DNA of 41,413 nucleotides, from the NCBI GenBank assembly GCA_016933965.1, contig JAFGTS010000030.1, forward strand, positions 1 through 41,413. Direction: 5' to 3'. The notes under the pieces were generated by a model. It was not told the origin of the DNA, made no database searches, and saw nothing but the letters and a program-made list of their open reading frames with translations. The translations under genes were made by a program, and so were the position numbers. The stretch is from Deltaproteobacteria bacterium (GTDB lineage: Bacteria; Desulfobacterota; Syntrophia; Syntrophales; UBA2210). Every line of letters begins with the position of its first letter. Within the stretch, counting starts at the first letter, position 1. Shown piece after piece: positions 12,284 through 16,790 of the stretch.

Positions 12284-12420
12284 AGATAGTCCTTTTCCCC
12301 TCTCGTCATCGGTGCCGATAACGCTTTGTCGGTCGTGCCGGTGCAGGTTAGCATAGTCGGGAGCCCTTCTTCAAGCGGAGTCACCAGGCGCGGGAGGAAA
12401 CAACCGGTAGGCTCCGGGCG

Positions 12421-12433
12421 TGATTTATGCTAT
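12421..12433 (+). promoter_or_regulatory. Candidate -10 region upstream of the alpha/beta hydrolase
   Basis: TGATTTATGCTAT is identical to 7601-7613 in front of satP. Here no recognisable -35 hexamer stands 16-18 bp upstream, so the call rests on the shared 13-mer and its position 61 nt before the start codon. Confidence 0.25.
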
Positions 12434-12493
12434 GAAAGGGGCACCGCCCGGATCCCTCAGTGGACAGGGGGGCATGCTACGGTGGGAGAGATC

Positions 12494-13120
12494 ATGATGA
12501 AGGAAGGATCCGTTTTTTTCAATGCCGGGACCATCAAACTCGAGGGGCTGATGGGCGTTGCCGGAACCGTAAAGGGGGCCGTTGTCACCCATCCCCATTC
12601 GCAGATGGGAGGCAGCATGGCCAACAACGTGGTCTCCGCCATGGTCGCCGCGTTTCAAGGCAAAGAGTACCGGACGCTTCGGTTCAACTTCCGGGGGGTC
12701 GGCCGGAGCGGGGGCTTTTTTGATAACGGCATCGGTGAACAGGACGATGTGGCGGCGGCCTGTGCCGCTCTCCGGAAGACGGGGGCCACGGAACTCGTTC
12801 TCTCGGGATATTCCTTCGGGGCCTGGGTGAACGCCCGGTTACTCGGTTCACAAGGGGGAGACTTTTCCGATGTTATCGTGGTCTCACCGCCGATCGATTT
12901 CATGGAATTCGATTTTTCTCCCCTGGCGGGCCGCTGCGGACTCATCATCTGCGGAGACCGGGACCAGTTCTGTCCTCTTGGCCCGTTGAAGGAGGCCGCG
13001 GGCGGCGTCGGTGCCCGCCTCGAGATCATACGAGGTGCAGACCATTTCTACTTCGGACATGAGCGGGCGATCTGCGAGTATCTTTCGGACTATCTGGAGA
13101 ACAGTGCCCCCGCTCACTGA
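12494..13120 (+). CDS. Alpha/beta hydrolase (COG2945-type)
   Basis: A 208-residue cytoplasmic alpha/beta hydrolase. Visible elements are THPHSQMGGSM near residue 32, the FNFRGVGRSGG oxyanion-loop block (64-74), the nucleophile elbow SGYSFGAW with Ser107, the acid CGDRDQFCP with Asp157 and the base GADHFYFG with His184. These match the small esterases of COG2945, which have no lid domain. ATGs at 12494 and 12497 both follow GGTGGGAG; I use the first. The reading frame extends to 12326, but this extension overlaps the promoter region and is not family-like. Its 3' end overlaps the converging crotonase gene by 7 bp. Substrate unknown; thioesterase or esterase activity is plausible. Confidence 0.85.
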   Translation: MMKEGSVFFNAGTIKLEGLMGVAGTVKGAVVTHPHSQMGGSMANNVVSAMVAAFQGKEYRTLRFNFRGVGRSGGFFDNGIGEQDDVAAACAALRKTGATELVLSGYSFGAWVNARLLGSQGGDFSDVIVVSPPIDFMEFDFSPLAGRCGLIICGDRDQFCPLGPLKEAAGGVGARLEIIRGADHFYFGHERAICEYLSDYLENSAPAH

Positions 13121-13833
13121 TACCAGAGTTTTCCACCTTCTATGAACGGCGGGTCCTCCTCGTCGATGACGCGGATGATGGTGCGGTTCATCCGCCGTTT
13201 CATTTCACCGAAGACCGCGCGGTTCTTGTTCATCGACCGGGCGAACCGGAACACCTCCTCAAGGAGATGCTCCTCCGTGTCGCAGGCCTTTGTAATGACA
13301 TGATGTTCCTCGAGGACCGCCGCCGTCATCCTGATGCCCGTATATTTCAGTTCTTCAAAGAGGTGACGCGGGACGGCCTTTGCCGTTATCTCGATCATTC
13401 CCGGCAGGAAGGGAATACCCAGATCGACCTCGGGGAACCGGGCGAATCCCCGGTCTTTCCGCATGAACCTGAAATCGCAGGCGCAGGCGAGCACCAGGCC
13501 GTTCGCCGCCACATGTCCGTTTATGGCGGCGATGACAGGCAGCGGATAGACGAGCATGGTTTTGAAAAGCTCATTGAGCGCGTAGAGAAACTCCCGGACC
13601 GAGCCCTGATCTCCTTCGGACAGCCGCTCCGCCACCCAGTCGACATCGACGCCGACCGACCAGTAGCAGGCGTCACTTGAGGTGAGAACAACGGAGGTGA
13701 CCGCCGGGTCCCCGAGGATCTCGTCGAAAGTACCGCACATGTGCCGGGCGAAGGCAAGGTTGTGCCGGTTCTCACCCCGGGTCATGGTGACGACAGCGAC
13801 GGTGCCGTTCCGCTCCCATATCGCTGTTTTCAT
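13114..13833 (-). CDS. Enoyl-CoA hydratase/isomerase family protein (ECI-like)
   Basis: A 239-residue crotonase-fold protein, slightly short for the family (about 260). The CoA-binding and oxyanion elements are DACYWSVGVDVDW (about 54-66) and AAINGHVAANGLVLA (103-117). In the second, the classic GGG of hydratases is replaced by AANG, closer to the GHASAAG form of plant-type delta3-delta2-enoyl-CoA isomerases. The region FPEVDLGIPF keeps one acidic residue (Glu135), while the two-Glu pattern of true hydratases is not evident. Isomerase or another crotonase reaction is therefore more likely than hydration (inference). It overlaps the upstream amidohydrolase gene by ATGA, implying coupled translation as the last gene of the CoA-transferase operon. 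Confidence 0.85.
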   Translation of the reverse strand: MKTAIWERNGTVAVVTMTRGENRHNLAFARHMCGTFDEILGDPAVTSVVLTSSDACYWSVGVDVDWVAERLSEGDQGSVREFLYALNELFKTMLVYPLPVIAAINGHVAANGLVLACACDFRFMRKDRGFARFPEVDLGIPFLPGMIEITAKAVPRHLFEELKYTGIRMTAAVLEEHHVITKACDTEEHLLEEVFRFARSMNKNRAVFGEMKRRMNRTIIRVIDEEDPPFIEGGKLWYQ

Positions 13834-14813
13834 TGGCCGTCGTCCTTTTCGACGCCGAAAAGCCGGGCGGCGTTCCTATAGAGCCACTTGTCCTTGACCT
13901 CTTCCTTCAGGGGAAGCTCCCTGACGCCGTCCGCCAGTTCCTTGATGCTTGCCCCCATGAACAGCCACGTGGAAGCAAAGAGGATCCGGTCCTGGAGAAT
14001 GGAATTCCCGAACTTCATGAGCGGTTCCCAGCCGCTTCCCGGCATGGCCAGGTATTTCGGGATATAGGAGGCTATGTCAATGTATATGTTGGAGTTTCTC
14101 CATGCCACGGCCACCATTTCATTTACCCAGGGCCATCCCCCGTGCCCCGCGATGATCTTCAGCTCGGGGAAGTCCTGGGCGACGAGATCGAGATAGATGG
14201 GCCGTTCCACTTCCATGGTGTTAGTGGAATAATTGATGGAAAGGTGAAACCACACGGGGATGTCCAGTTCGACGCAGGTCGCATAGAGCGGGTACATTTT
14301 CGCGTGATGGGGAGGGATGCCGAACATGAAGGGGCGAACGGCGATGCCCCGGAGCCCCAGGTCGTAACTTCTCCTGATCTCCCGCACCGCGGCCATTCCC
14401 TTGAGGGGGTCGATGCCGGCGATGCCGATGAATCTGTCGGGATAGTTCCGGACCACCTCTGCGTAATAGTCGTTGGGCAGCCCGGGGATGCCGCTGGGGG
14501 TTTCCTCGTCGAGCTTGAAGATGACGGCGCGCTCGACACCCATGGTGTCGAGCTGCTCAACGAAGGCATCGACGGACATGGTAAGCGGCCGCATCTTCGG
14601 TGCGATCGCCTTTCTCAGCTCGTCCACCGTGAGGGACACTTTCATGTCGTAGAGTTCCGCGGCCTCCATCCCCAGCAGGGGACCGACCCGCGGCCCGAAA
14701 ATATCCTTGAGGTAGCGTGCCATCTGGGGAGGCAGGGAGACGACCAGGTCCACCATGACCTCTTCCGTCGGGAGATAGCAGAGCGCGTCGATGATCCGGT
14801 ATGATCCTGCCAT
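13830..14813 (-). CDS. Amidohydrolase_2-fold protein (COG2159) lacking several metal ligands
   Basis: A 327-residue TIM-barrel protein of the ACMSD/amidohydrolase_2 type, recognised by the blocks DRFIGIAGIDPLKG, LGLRGIAVRPF, IPVWFHLS (His190), KIIAGHGGWPW (His224) and DRILFASTWLF followed by NAARLFGV. Family decarboxylases and hydrolases open with an HxH metal motif and end the barrel with an Asp. Here the N-terminal motif reads IDALCYL and the Asp position is Thr282 (FASTW). Two or three ligands are thus missing, and the mononuclear zinc site may be absent or rebuilt. The start ATG at 14813 is 2 nt past the CoA-transferase B stop and the 3' end overlaps the crotonase gene (ATGA). It may be a C-C hydrolase, a decarboxylase with another mechanism, or a binding subunit. 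Confidence 0.85.
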   Translation of the reverse strand: MAGSYRIIDALCYLPTEEVMVDLVVSLPPQMARYLKDIFGPRVGPLLGMEAAELYDMKVSLTVDELRKAIAPKMRPLTMSVDAFVEQLDTMGVERAVIFKLDEETPSGIPGLPNDYYAEVVRNYPDRFIGIAGIDPLKGMAAVREIRRSYDLGLRGIAVRPFMFGIPPHHAKMYPLYATCVELDIPVWFHLSINYSTNTMEVERPIYLDLVAQDFPELKIIAGHGGWPWVNEMVAVAWRNSNIYIDIASYIPKYLAMPGSGWEPLMKFGNSILQDRILFASTWLFMGASIKELADGVRELPLKEEVKDKWLYRNAARLFGVEKDDGQ

Positions 14814-14815
14814 GG

Positions 14816-15643
14816 CTACTTCCCTCCCGCGGCTTCCGAGAGGACCCGCATGACCCGGGTGACCACCGTCTCGATCTGGAGCTGCCGTCCCATGGATATT
14901 TCCGGGGCAAAGGTCCTGATGATCTCAAGCTCCCTTTCGCCGGGGAGTTCCGTTATTTCCAGTTCGTCGGCCACGGGGATGTCCCAGGGGATGTCCGCAA
15001 GCACATCATCGATGGTGACCCCTGGGTGAAGGCCGGCGAGGTACATTTCCTTCGTGTCGGCGGCATACTTGAAGACCCCCTTTGTGGTGATGAGAGCGCT
15101 GGGACCGGACCCCTCGGGCATACCGGCCTCATACCGGCTGGTGCCACCCGTTACATAGCCCGGTGTTGTGAAGTAATCGAGCTTCTCCACGAACTCTCCG
15201 CCGCGCATCGTTTGAACACCTCTCATGGCGTAACCGGCGAACTCGGGCGCCCCCCCGGCCCCCATCATGCGCATTTCGAAATCCTCGGGATCGCCGATGT
15301 AACTGCTGTTCATGTTGCCGAAGCGGTCAATCTGCCCCACGCCCAGGAAGGCCACGTCGGCGTACCCGTGGTTCATGATGGTCGAAAAGATGTCTATCAT
15401 GTCGCACCCGTATGTGTATCCGCGCGTGCAGCTCGGGTCGGCGATATGAAGCGGAACCTTGAAGGGGTCGATTCCCACCATCCCCGCTTCGGTCAGGATG
15501 ATCGTGTTCGGTGCGTGGGTTCTCTGCGCCAGCACCCCGGCGGCCATGGGGATTCCCTGGCCGATGACCACCATCTCTCCGTCGTTGATCTCCTGTGACG
15601 CCCGGTATACGATCAGTTCGTCGATAGTATATCTGATAGTCAT
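14816..15643 (-). CDS. CoA-transferase subunit B (GctB/IpdB-like)
   Basis: A 275-residue family I CoA-transferase beta subunit. The segment ILTEAGMVGID places Glu52 where the catalytic, thioester-forming glutamate of glutaconate CoA-transferase B lies, so real CoA transfer is possible. The mycobacterial IpdB paralogue, by contrast, works in a hydrolase. Other family blocks are VAFLGVGQIDRFGNMN, GAGGAPEFA and LITTKGVF. Cytoplasmic. It follows subunit A by 27 nt and precedes the amidohydrolase by 2 nt, so A-B-amidohydrolase-crotonase is one transcript. The ATG at 15643 has AAAAGGAGCG upstream. The substrate is unknown; a dicarboxylic or cyclic acid is suggested by the neighbours. Confidence 0.9.
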   Translation of the reverse strand: MTIRYTIDELIVYRASQEINDGEMVVIGQGIPMAAGVLAQRTHAPNTIILTEAGMVGIDPFKVPLHIADPSCTRGYTYGCDMIDIFSTIMNHGYADVAFLGVGQIDRFGNMNSSYIGDPEDFEMRMMGAGGAPEFAGYAMRGVQTMRGGEFVEKLDYFTTPGYVTGGTSRYEAGMPEGSGPSALITTKGVFKYAADTKEMYLAGLHPGVTIDDVLADIPWDIPVADELEITELPGERELEIIRTFAPEISMGRQLQIETVVTRVMRVLSEAAGGK

Positions 15644-15670
15644 GATAATGCGCTCCTTTTCGTGGATTCC

Positions 15671-16726
15671 TTATCCTTCAAGCAAGACGCCCCGCTCGTC
15701 GAGCATCTTGAGAAATTCCGCCATGTTCACTCCCAGTTTTTCAGAATATCCCTGGTCATCCCATTCCCGAGTGAAGGGGAAGCCGTAATCCGCCGGTACG
15801 CTGGGGAACGGTTGTGCCAGCAGGCGGTCCATCTGTTTTTTTCCGAATTTCTCGAGGTAATGGGATACATATTCAGGCCGGCCGGGGATGTTGTAGATCC
15901 ACTCGTCCATCCAGGCCTTCATCGCATCCGGTGAGCCCACCGAGGCATAGAAGAGGGCACGGAAGATCAGGTCATAATCATAGTATCCTGCCACTTCGGA
16001 GGGGTGGGCCCCCCAGGGACATTCCACGACGGCGCAGACCTTGTGGGCCGGTGCAATGGTCAGGTGAGGCGCGGACTGAATGACCTCCCGTTCCACGATC
16101 TTTTCCGTTGAGAGAATGATCTTCTTCGCCGCCAGGGCCGCCCACTTGCTGTTTATCATGGCGCCCCAGAGCTGGCCGTTGCCGGCCCGGTCGGCGCGCT
16201 GGACATGCATCAGGGCGCAGTCCGGATTGTATCCCTTCACGACGAGGACCGATTCGCCGTTGAAGGGGTCCCGCACTTCGCCGAAACAGTCATCTCCCAG
16301 GAGCCCTTTTCGTTTCACCACGTCCGTCACCCTGATGCCGGGCAGGACGGGGATGAAGTTATACCCCATGGCGCCGGCTTTCATCATGCTGAGCAGGGTG
16401 AAATTGGTCATTTCCTGGACGCGCACACGTTTTTCCTTCAAGGCCCGGTCAAGCGGCGGTGTCAGCCGCTTGCCGCCGACCCTGAAATTGTAGGCCAGCA
16501 CCAGCCGGTCAATGATCCCTGCTTCGACCATGAGATCGATCTCCTCGATCCCGCCCTGCTGAAAGACCATGAGGTTCCGTTTGCCCGCCCTGATCACTTC
16601 ATGCACCAGTGCCAGGGGCATCGCGGTGAGACAATTGGCAAAGACCAGTGAATCGCCGTCGGTGATGAATCGGTTGACGGCCTCCGTCGCCGTCATGACC
16701 TTGTCGCGTTCCATGTACTTTTCCAT
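15671..16726 (-). CDS. CoA-transferase subunit A (GctA/IpdA-like)
   Basis: A 351-residue family I CoA-transferase alpha subunit, longer than AtoD-type subunits and in the range of GctA/IpdA. Recognisable parts are ITDGDSLVFANCLTAMPLAL, NLMVFQQGGIEEIDLMVEAG, GMINSKWAALAAKKII-like text near residue 200 and APAHKVCAVVECPWGAHPS. Two starts compete: GTG at 16735 and ATG at 16726. The ATG has GAGAGGTGA six bases upstream, so I use it. It is the first gene of the four-gene operon and pairs with subunit B to form the active oligomer. The WGAHPSEVAGYYDYD segment is typical of the IpdA/GctA group and favours an acyl-CoA substrate with a carboxylate, but this is inference. Confidence 0.9.
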   Translation of the reverse strand: MEKYMERDKVMTATEAVNRFITDGDSLVFANCLTAMPLALVHEVIRAGKRNLMVFQQGGIEEIDLMVEAGIIDRLVLAYNFRVGGKRLTPPLDRALKEKRVRVQEMTNFTLLSMMKAGAMGYNFIPVLPGIRVTDVVKRKGLLGDDCFGEVRDPFNGESVLVVKGYNPDCALMHVQRADRAGNGQLWGAMINSKWAALAAKKIILSTEKIVEREVIQSAPHLTIAPAHKVCAVVECPWGAHPSEVAGYYDYDLIFRALFYASVGSPDAMKAWMDEWIYNIPGRPEYVSHYLEKFGKKQMDRLLAQPFPSVPADYGFPFTREWDDQGYSEKLGVNMAEFLKMLDERGVLLEG

Positions 16727-16762
16727 ACCGGTCACCTCTCGTGCATCGTTGCCTGTTCGATT

Positions 16763-16790
16763 GTTGTATTGATTGCCGGGTCCGTTGCAA
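16763..16790 (-). promoter_or_regulatory. Candidate promoter of the CoA-transferase operon
   Basis: On the minus strand TTGCAA (16790-16785) and TACAAC (16768-16763) are 16 bp apart, 37 nt before the ATG at 16726. The match is moderate; no operator is evident. Confidence 0.35.

Follow-up and report, generated by a model that had tools for sequence, protein, structure and literature searches.

A conserved coenzyme A transferase operon of uncharacterised function in Desulfobacterota and a linked, probable selenoprotein family

The glutaconate coenzyme A (CoA)-transferase GctAB of Acidaminococcus fermentans (structure 1poi) is a two-subunit class I enzyme, and AibAB, the 3-methylglutaconyl-CoA decarboxylase of Myxococcus, is a heteromer of the same fold that does not transfer CoA. 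In the opening of steroid rings C and D by actinobacteria, the CoA-transferase-fold pair IpdAB is accompanied by the crotonase EchA20; IpdB lacks the catalytic glutamate (Gly57), and no transfer of CoA was seen with IpdAB (PMC5380842). For anaerobic naphthalene degradation, the thn cluster encodes an amidohydrolase-superfamily protein, ThnN, close to a CoA-transferase and crotonases. ThnP moves CoA from one carboxylate to another, and ThnN is proposed for ring opening and is the best remaining candidate for that step; BamU of Geobacter, a homologue of ThnN, has no assigned function (PMC12016498). Here we analyse a four-gene unit, ctA-ctB-amh-ech, on a contig of a Deltaproteobacteria bacterium of the order Syntrophales (JAFGTS010000030.1, positions 1 to 41,413; this whole stretch of 41,413 nucleotides is the window). 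The unit encodes a CoA-transferase-like pair (CtA and CtB, together CtAB), an amidohydrolase-fold protein (Amh) and a crotonase (Ech), and an earlier note, made from the sequence, had suggested that it could be an anaerobic counterpart of IpdAB–EchA20. We find that the operon is a real, conserved and uncharacterised module; a literature search on the gene set found no description of it.

A gene order shared across Desulfobacterota

In the open reading frame list of the window, the four genes form a single minus-strand unit, and the junctions that the earlier note had read (27 nucleotides between ctA and ctB, 2 nucleotides between ctB and amh, and a four-nucleotide ATGA overlap between amh and ech) are exact in the coordinates. 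The first two genes encode class I CoA-transferase subunits: a GctA-like alpha subunit of 351 residues (ctA, 15671–16726, minus strand; PF01144, 8e-22; 1poi_A, 1.1e-27) and a GctB-like beta subunit of 275 residues (ctB, 14816–15643, minus strand; PF01144, 3.5e-19; 1poi_B, 4.8e-36), so that two tandem subunits with a CoA_trans domain are present. They are followed by amh (13830–14813, minus strand), whose product of 327 residues has the Amidohydro_2 fold (PF04909, 3.9e-36), and by ech (13114–13833, minus strand), which encodes a crotonase-fold protein of 239 residues (PF00378, 1e-25). The reading frame of ctA was first called as 15671–16735 on the minus strand with a nominal GTG start at 16735; the true start is probably the ATG at 16726, because a putative ribosome-binding site, GAGAGGTG, precedes it and the N-terminus read from there agrees with the MEKYMxxDK of the orthologues. 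Among the NCBIfam models listed, none reached its cut-off with CtA, CtB, Amh or Ech. Promoter and terminator scans of the operon gave scores no better than those of shuffled sequence, and the operon claim therefore rests on spacing and conservation.

The genes ctA-ctB-amh are contiguous and co-directional in 11 Desulfobacterota genomes of at least six families, from uncultured bacteria of mud and groundwater: the window and loci L007 (genome G001), L008 (G185), L013, L014 (G417), L017, L026 (G039), L093 (G020), L094 (G024), L169 (G204) and L170 (G155). In G004 the locus is cut by a contig end. Since the three genes are contiguous in 11 genomes and their CtA proteins form a clade of their own with full support (100/100), the grouping exceeds chance and is not a local accident. 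The amidohydrolase homologue, singled out earlier as the unusual member of the set, is thus a genuine recurring partner, and ech comes next in 4 of the 11 loci (the window, L007, L014 and L017).

Homologues of Amh reach beyond this arrangement. A scan of named genome contigs recovered copies 71–81% identical in Deltaproteobacteria metagenome-assembled genomes and in Lokiarchaeia, and the neighbourhoods of Amh homologues tie the protein to acid activation, because CoA-activating enzymes of several unrelated kinds are close by: homologues lie directly downstream of a PaaK-type ligase in L029 and L030, near such a ligase and an amino-acid permease in both L031 and L174, near class III transferases in L033 and L063 (CaiB-like, judging from their sequences), and 2–5 kb from AMP-forming ligases in Lokiarchaeia. 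Homologues of 45–51% identity in L031, L032, L034 and L174 stand beside an APC-type amino-acid permease, and in L031, L034 and L174 a PaaK-type ligase is also adjacent. A unit of a crotonase, an SCP2-like protein and a class III aminotransferase lies upstream of ctAB-amh in L169 (1543–4564) and of amh in L173 (10450–13819). As hints to the substrate, this unit and the permease point to no single answer.

The Lokiarchaeal copies (L009, L010, L011, L018, L020, L022, L024, L025 and L027) are 71–78% identical and share a conserved neighbourhood that includes a DNA polymerase B-like gene and, at most of these loci, AMP-forming acyl-CoA ligases; no close ctB was found in the Lokiarchaeal genomes searched. 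In a tree they group as a single clade near the bacterial sequences (91/95), which is consistent with a single interdomain transfer in either direction. The same small protein of about 163 residues is encoded after ctB in L210 (3259–3753) and after amh in L016 (1692–2183), an indirect link between the two genes. In the window, an alpha/beta hydrolase gene (12326–13120, plus strand) converges on ech and overlaps its end by a few bases, and a gene resembling it sits near amh in L031.

The CoA-transferase pair and the crotonase

Among solved structures, 1poi is the best match for both CtA and CtB. In a tree of the A subunit only, with one GctA reference and some long branches, the CtA clade falls on the GctA side but outside the group of GctA_1poi; its sister is a further uncharacterised clade, and IpdA and AibA stand apart from it. 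The earlier note had reckoned that firm placement of both subunits inside a characterised GctAB or IpdAB clade, with amh present by chance, would refute its proposal; CtA lies outside those of GctA, IpdA and AibA, and amh is recurrent.

The glutamate that it had picked out in the beta subunit, Glu52 (codon 15488–15490, minus strand), aligns with the catalytic Glu54 of GctB (1poi_B, VESG) and is present in all 13 CtB sequences of the clade, that of the window among them, and in 14 of 14 of the sister clade. At the position mutated in the IpdA entry 6coj, which we take to be the E105A variant, the alignment of CtA reads EMT-N-FTLL, with Asn rather than Glu there. Because CtB keeps Glu52, whereas IpdB lacks the residue and IpdAB gave no CoA transfer, CtAB is best read as a likely true CoA-transferase rather than an IpdAB-type hydrolase. 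Membership of the IpdAB group was rejected on the same residue, and AibAB differs likewise, with Ser in AibB where CtB has Glu and with CtA in a separate clade. The transfer step that had been suggested as one of two options is accordingly the one that the family and its glutamate favour.

The sister clade (L079–L092) is GctAB-like, widespread in the same order and uncharacterised; in several of its loci the pair is followed by genes resembling short-chain dehydrogenase/reductases and 3-hydroxyacyl-CoA dehydrogenases. Within the roughly 1.5 kb viewed around its members, amh was found near none of 14.

Ech fits the description of an isomerase-like crotonase. Delta3-delta2-enoyl-CoA isomerases (ECI) have the crotonase fold with only the second of the two catalytic glutamates of enoyl-CoA hydratase, and in phmmer alignments to 2ppy and 8zru Ech keeps that residue, Glu135 (in FPEVDLG; codon 13429–13431, minus strand), and has Val114 at the position of the first. 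The stretch FPEVDLGIPF is present in all four Ech orthologues, and by this one-Glu pattern Ech would be ECI-like. Among the best 25 NCBIfam matches listed, Ech stays far below the cut-off of every crotonase model, the best score being 74.8 bits against a cut-off of 300, and it was not assigned to EchA20 or BadI. Whereas the folds are those of IpdAB–EchA20, a CoA-transferase-fold pair plus a crotonase, a role as the anaerobic counterpart of that system is not supported: CtB has the glutamate that IpdB lacks, Ech is ECI-like, and the IpdAB-like, Glu-lacking genes that do occur near some of these operons are a different pair from ctAB, with a candidate selenocysteine (Sec).

An amidohydrolase fold with an altered active site

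The predicted structure of Amh is confident (mean predicted local distance difference test score 94.4, predicted template modelling score 0.92). Its closest structural match by a clear margin is 3irs (BB4693 of Bordetella bronchiseptica, an uncharacterised TIM barrel; Z 29.3, 268 residues, 27% identity), in agreement with Foldseek; other amidohydrolase-fold proteins follow, among them, at Z 20–22, metal-dependent decarboxylases (5-carboxyvanillate, dihydroxybenzoate, ACMSD and isoorotate), the hydratase LigJ and the C–C hydrolase LigY. The amidohydrolase fold named in the earlier note therefore stands, by PF04909 and by the model, but the label misleads: as judged, like the pocket, from sequence conservation only, three of the five residues of the metal site have been exchanged for others. 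The beta-1 HxH motif reads Leu11-Cys12-Tyr13 (codons 14775–14783, minus strand), with Leu11 and Tyr13 in 22 of 22 close homologues, and the beta-8 Asp is Thr282 (codon 13968–13970, minus strand), with Thr in 21 of 22; His190 and His224 are retained. A paralogue in the same genome, L003, reads D-A-H-C-H. In-frame TGA or TAA codons in amh paralogues were considered as selenocysteine and rejected, the stop being, in the cases aligned, the natural terminal codon or outside the aligned stretch.

With the HxH and the beta-8 Asp lost, Amh is, by its sequence, not a normal metal hydrolase. The close clade, which spans bacteria and archaea, has 106 of 327 positions invariant; D9, R160, H190, N194, H224, W227, W229, E232 and D246 are kept in all 22 homologues, and a conserved PTEEV...SLPPQMARYLK segment marks the clade and sets it apart from 3irs. 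Since the replacements and other polar and Trp residues are conserved, the pattern argues for a pocket under selection, with an active site kept but altered rather than decaying, and Amh may work without metal.

Onto this module, whose gene order, conservation and active-site residues are read directly from the genomes, we place a reading to which we give a probability of roughly 45%: that it is dedicated to activating and processing an acid. CtAB, by family membership, would move CoA from a donor acyl-CoA to a carboxylic acid through an acyl anhydride on Glu52; Amh might then carry out a metal-independent acid–base step of the lyase, hydratase or C–C-cleaving type in its TIM barrel, on the acid or its CoA ester; and Ech, with its single catalytic Glu, might move a double bond from position 3 to position 2, making the product fit for beta-oxidation. 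The acid is probably unsaturated or cyclic and carries a further polar group. Several observations weigh against this scheme: ech is missing from several ctA-ctB-amh loci and so may not be essential to the step, ctAB is present with no amh beside it in G549 (L210), amh occurs without ctAB in Lokiarchaeia and some bacteria, and Amh could be non-catalytic.

The nearest functional precedent that we found is the thn cluster, another anaerobic set that unites an amidohydrolase-superfamily protein, a CoA-transferase and crotonases, and Amh could have a ThnN-like role. Hydrolytic ring opening, in which Amh would open a cyclic beta-oxoacyl-CoA as ThnN may, CtAB would relocate the CoA as ThnP does and Ech would shift the double bond, with the IpdAB-like Sec pair opening a second ring in relatives, is nevertheless unlikely in our judgement. 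The ThnN and BamU precedent, the linkage of the IpdAB-like pair to the operon in four genomes and the SCP2-like and crotonase genes upstream in L169 speak for it. However, Amh has lost the metal ligands and, with the beta-8 Asp, the residue that activates water, whereas ThnN is described as metal-dependent; Amh is set beside ThnN and BamU by description, not by sequence; ThnP is a single gene and CtAB a two-subunit class I enzyme; and no genes of benzoyl-CoA or naphthoyl-CoA type were seen beside the operon. A search with AtuA (PF07287) for thn-like clusters led to no cluster with a ThnN-like gene; the one exception was G180, where an AtuA-like gene lies directly downstream of the gene for a 45% identical Amh homologue (L176:6822–9324).

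Decarboxylation, with CtAB activating a dicarboxylic acid and Amh removing CO2, without a metal, from that acid or from its CoA ester, we regard as improbable. The substrates of GctAB are C5 dicarboxylates, and after 3irs most structural neighbours of Amh with a named function are decarboxylases; yet these are metal-dependent and Amh is without the HxH and the Asp, and 3irs itself has no known function. We give little credence, too, to Amh being a non-catalytic pseudo-enzyme with a role in binding or sensing the acyl-CoA or as a scaffold for CtAB and Ech: the canonical catalytic residues are indeed lost across the whole close clade, but its invariant positions, from bacteria to archaea, include many polar residues and Trp, and Amh occurs alone in several genomes. 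An ordinary glutaconate or 2-hydroxyglutarate CoA-transferase of amino-acid fermentation with unrelated neighbours is very improbable: although GctAB is the top-scoring solved structure for either subunit, CtA is longer than its counterpart and stands in its own clade, amh follows immediately in 11 genomes, and no hydroxyglutaryl-CoA dehydratase, glutaconyl-CoA decarboxylase or other glutamate-fermentation gene was recognised beside the operon.

If the acid-processing reading is right, this is a catabolic unit conserved across Desulfobacterota and centred on a protein stripped of its usual metal site that is also found, at 71–78% identity, in Lokiarchaeia. Working out what the unit does would assign a role to a set of PF04909 proteins whose present annotation as metal-dependent hydrolases misleads.

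A linked second pair with an in-frame TGA codon

A second, IpdAB-like pair of CoA-transferase fold lies directly after the operon in L014, L026 and L093 and a few genes on in L094; AibAB may serve as a model for it. Its B subunit lacks the glutamate-bearing loop, and codon 102 of its A subunit is an in-frame TGA in 36 genomes, comprising 19 of 197 relatives and 17 further genomes from a phylum sample, that of the window included. Protein homology continues on both sides of the codon, at 38–85% identity to a query that is one of the 36. Such A subunits are encoded at L014:9875–10705, L026:9107–9943, L093:10266–11102 and L094:13366–14205.

About 15 nucleotides 3' of the TGA lies a hairpin resembling a selenocysteine insertion sequence, conserved with compensatory changes: 91.4% of cells are paired, and 10 cells change on both sides against 3.4 in shuffles (0 of 500). 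We regard this covariation as supporting rather than conclusive, because the same bases are under coding constraint and the sequences are related. The TGA aligns with a residue that is Glu in the IpdA entry 6co6 and Ala in 6coj; among homologues, one has Cys there (L228, TGT, 39% identity) and others have Glu. The Sec clade is monophyletic (100/99). The genome that holds the window encodes SelB (C18:32547, 365 bits); its presence in nearly all relatives made selB uninformative as a discriminator, and it was dropped as such.

Taken from sequence, the A subunit is a probable selenoprotein family. Such a family is absent from reviews of prokaryotic selenoproteomes and from the deep-Sep paper, which is not proof of novelty. 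We consider it a more surprising result than the operon itself and one to follow on its own: if confirmed, it would add CoA-transferase-fold enzymes to the known selenoproteins and raise the question of why selenium is used in a hydrolase-like active site.

The function of the Sec pair and its tie to the window's operon are inferred. That the two form one undescribed anaerobic pathway strikes us as doubtful; it would run from CoA transfer through a metal-free step on the amidohydrolase fold and isomerisation of a double bond to C–C or C–O cleavage by a CoA-transferase-fold enzyme in which Sec replaces the catalytic Glu of IpdA. If true, a selenoprotein would there serve as an acyl-CoA hydrolase or lyase, outside redox chemistry. 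The second pair of the window's genome is on a different contig (C22), not beside the operon. Its A subunit, with the in-frame TGA 102 and the hairpin, is encoded at G000:C22:127409–128239 (L109; L128:9910–10740), and the pair lies near genes for an acyl-CoA dehydrogenase, a 2,4-dienoyl-CoA-reductase-like flavoprotein and AMP ligases.

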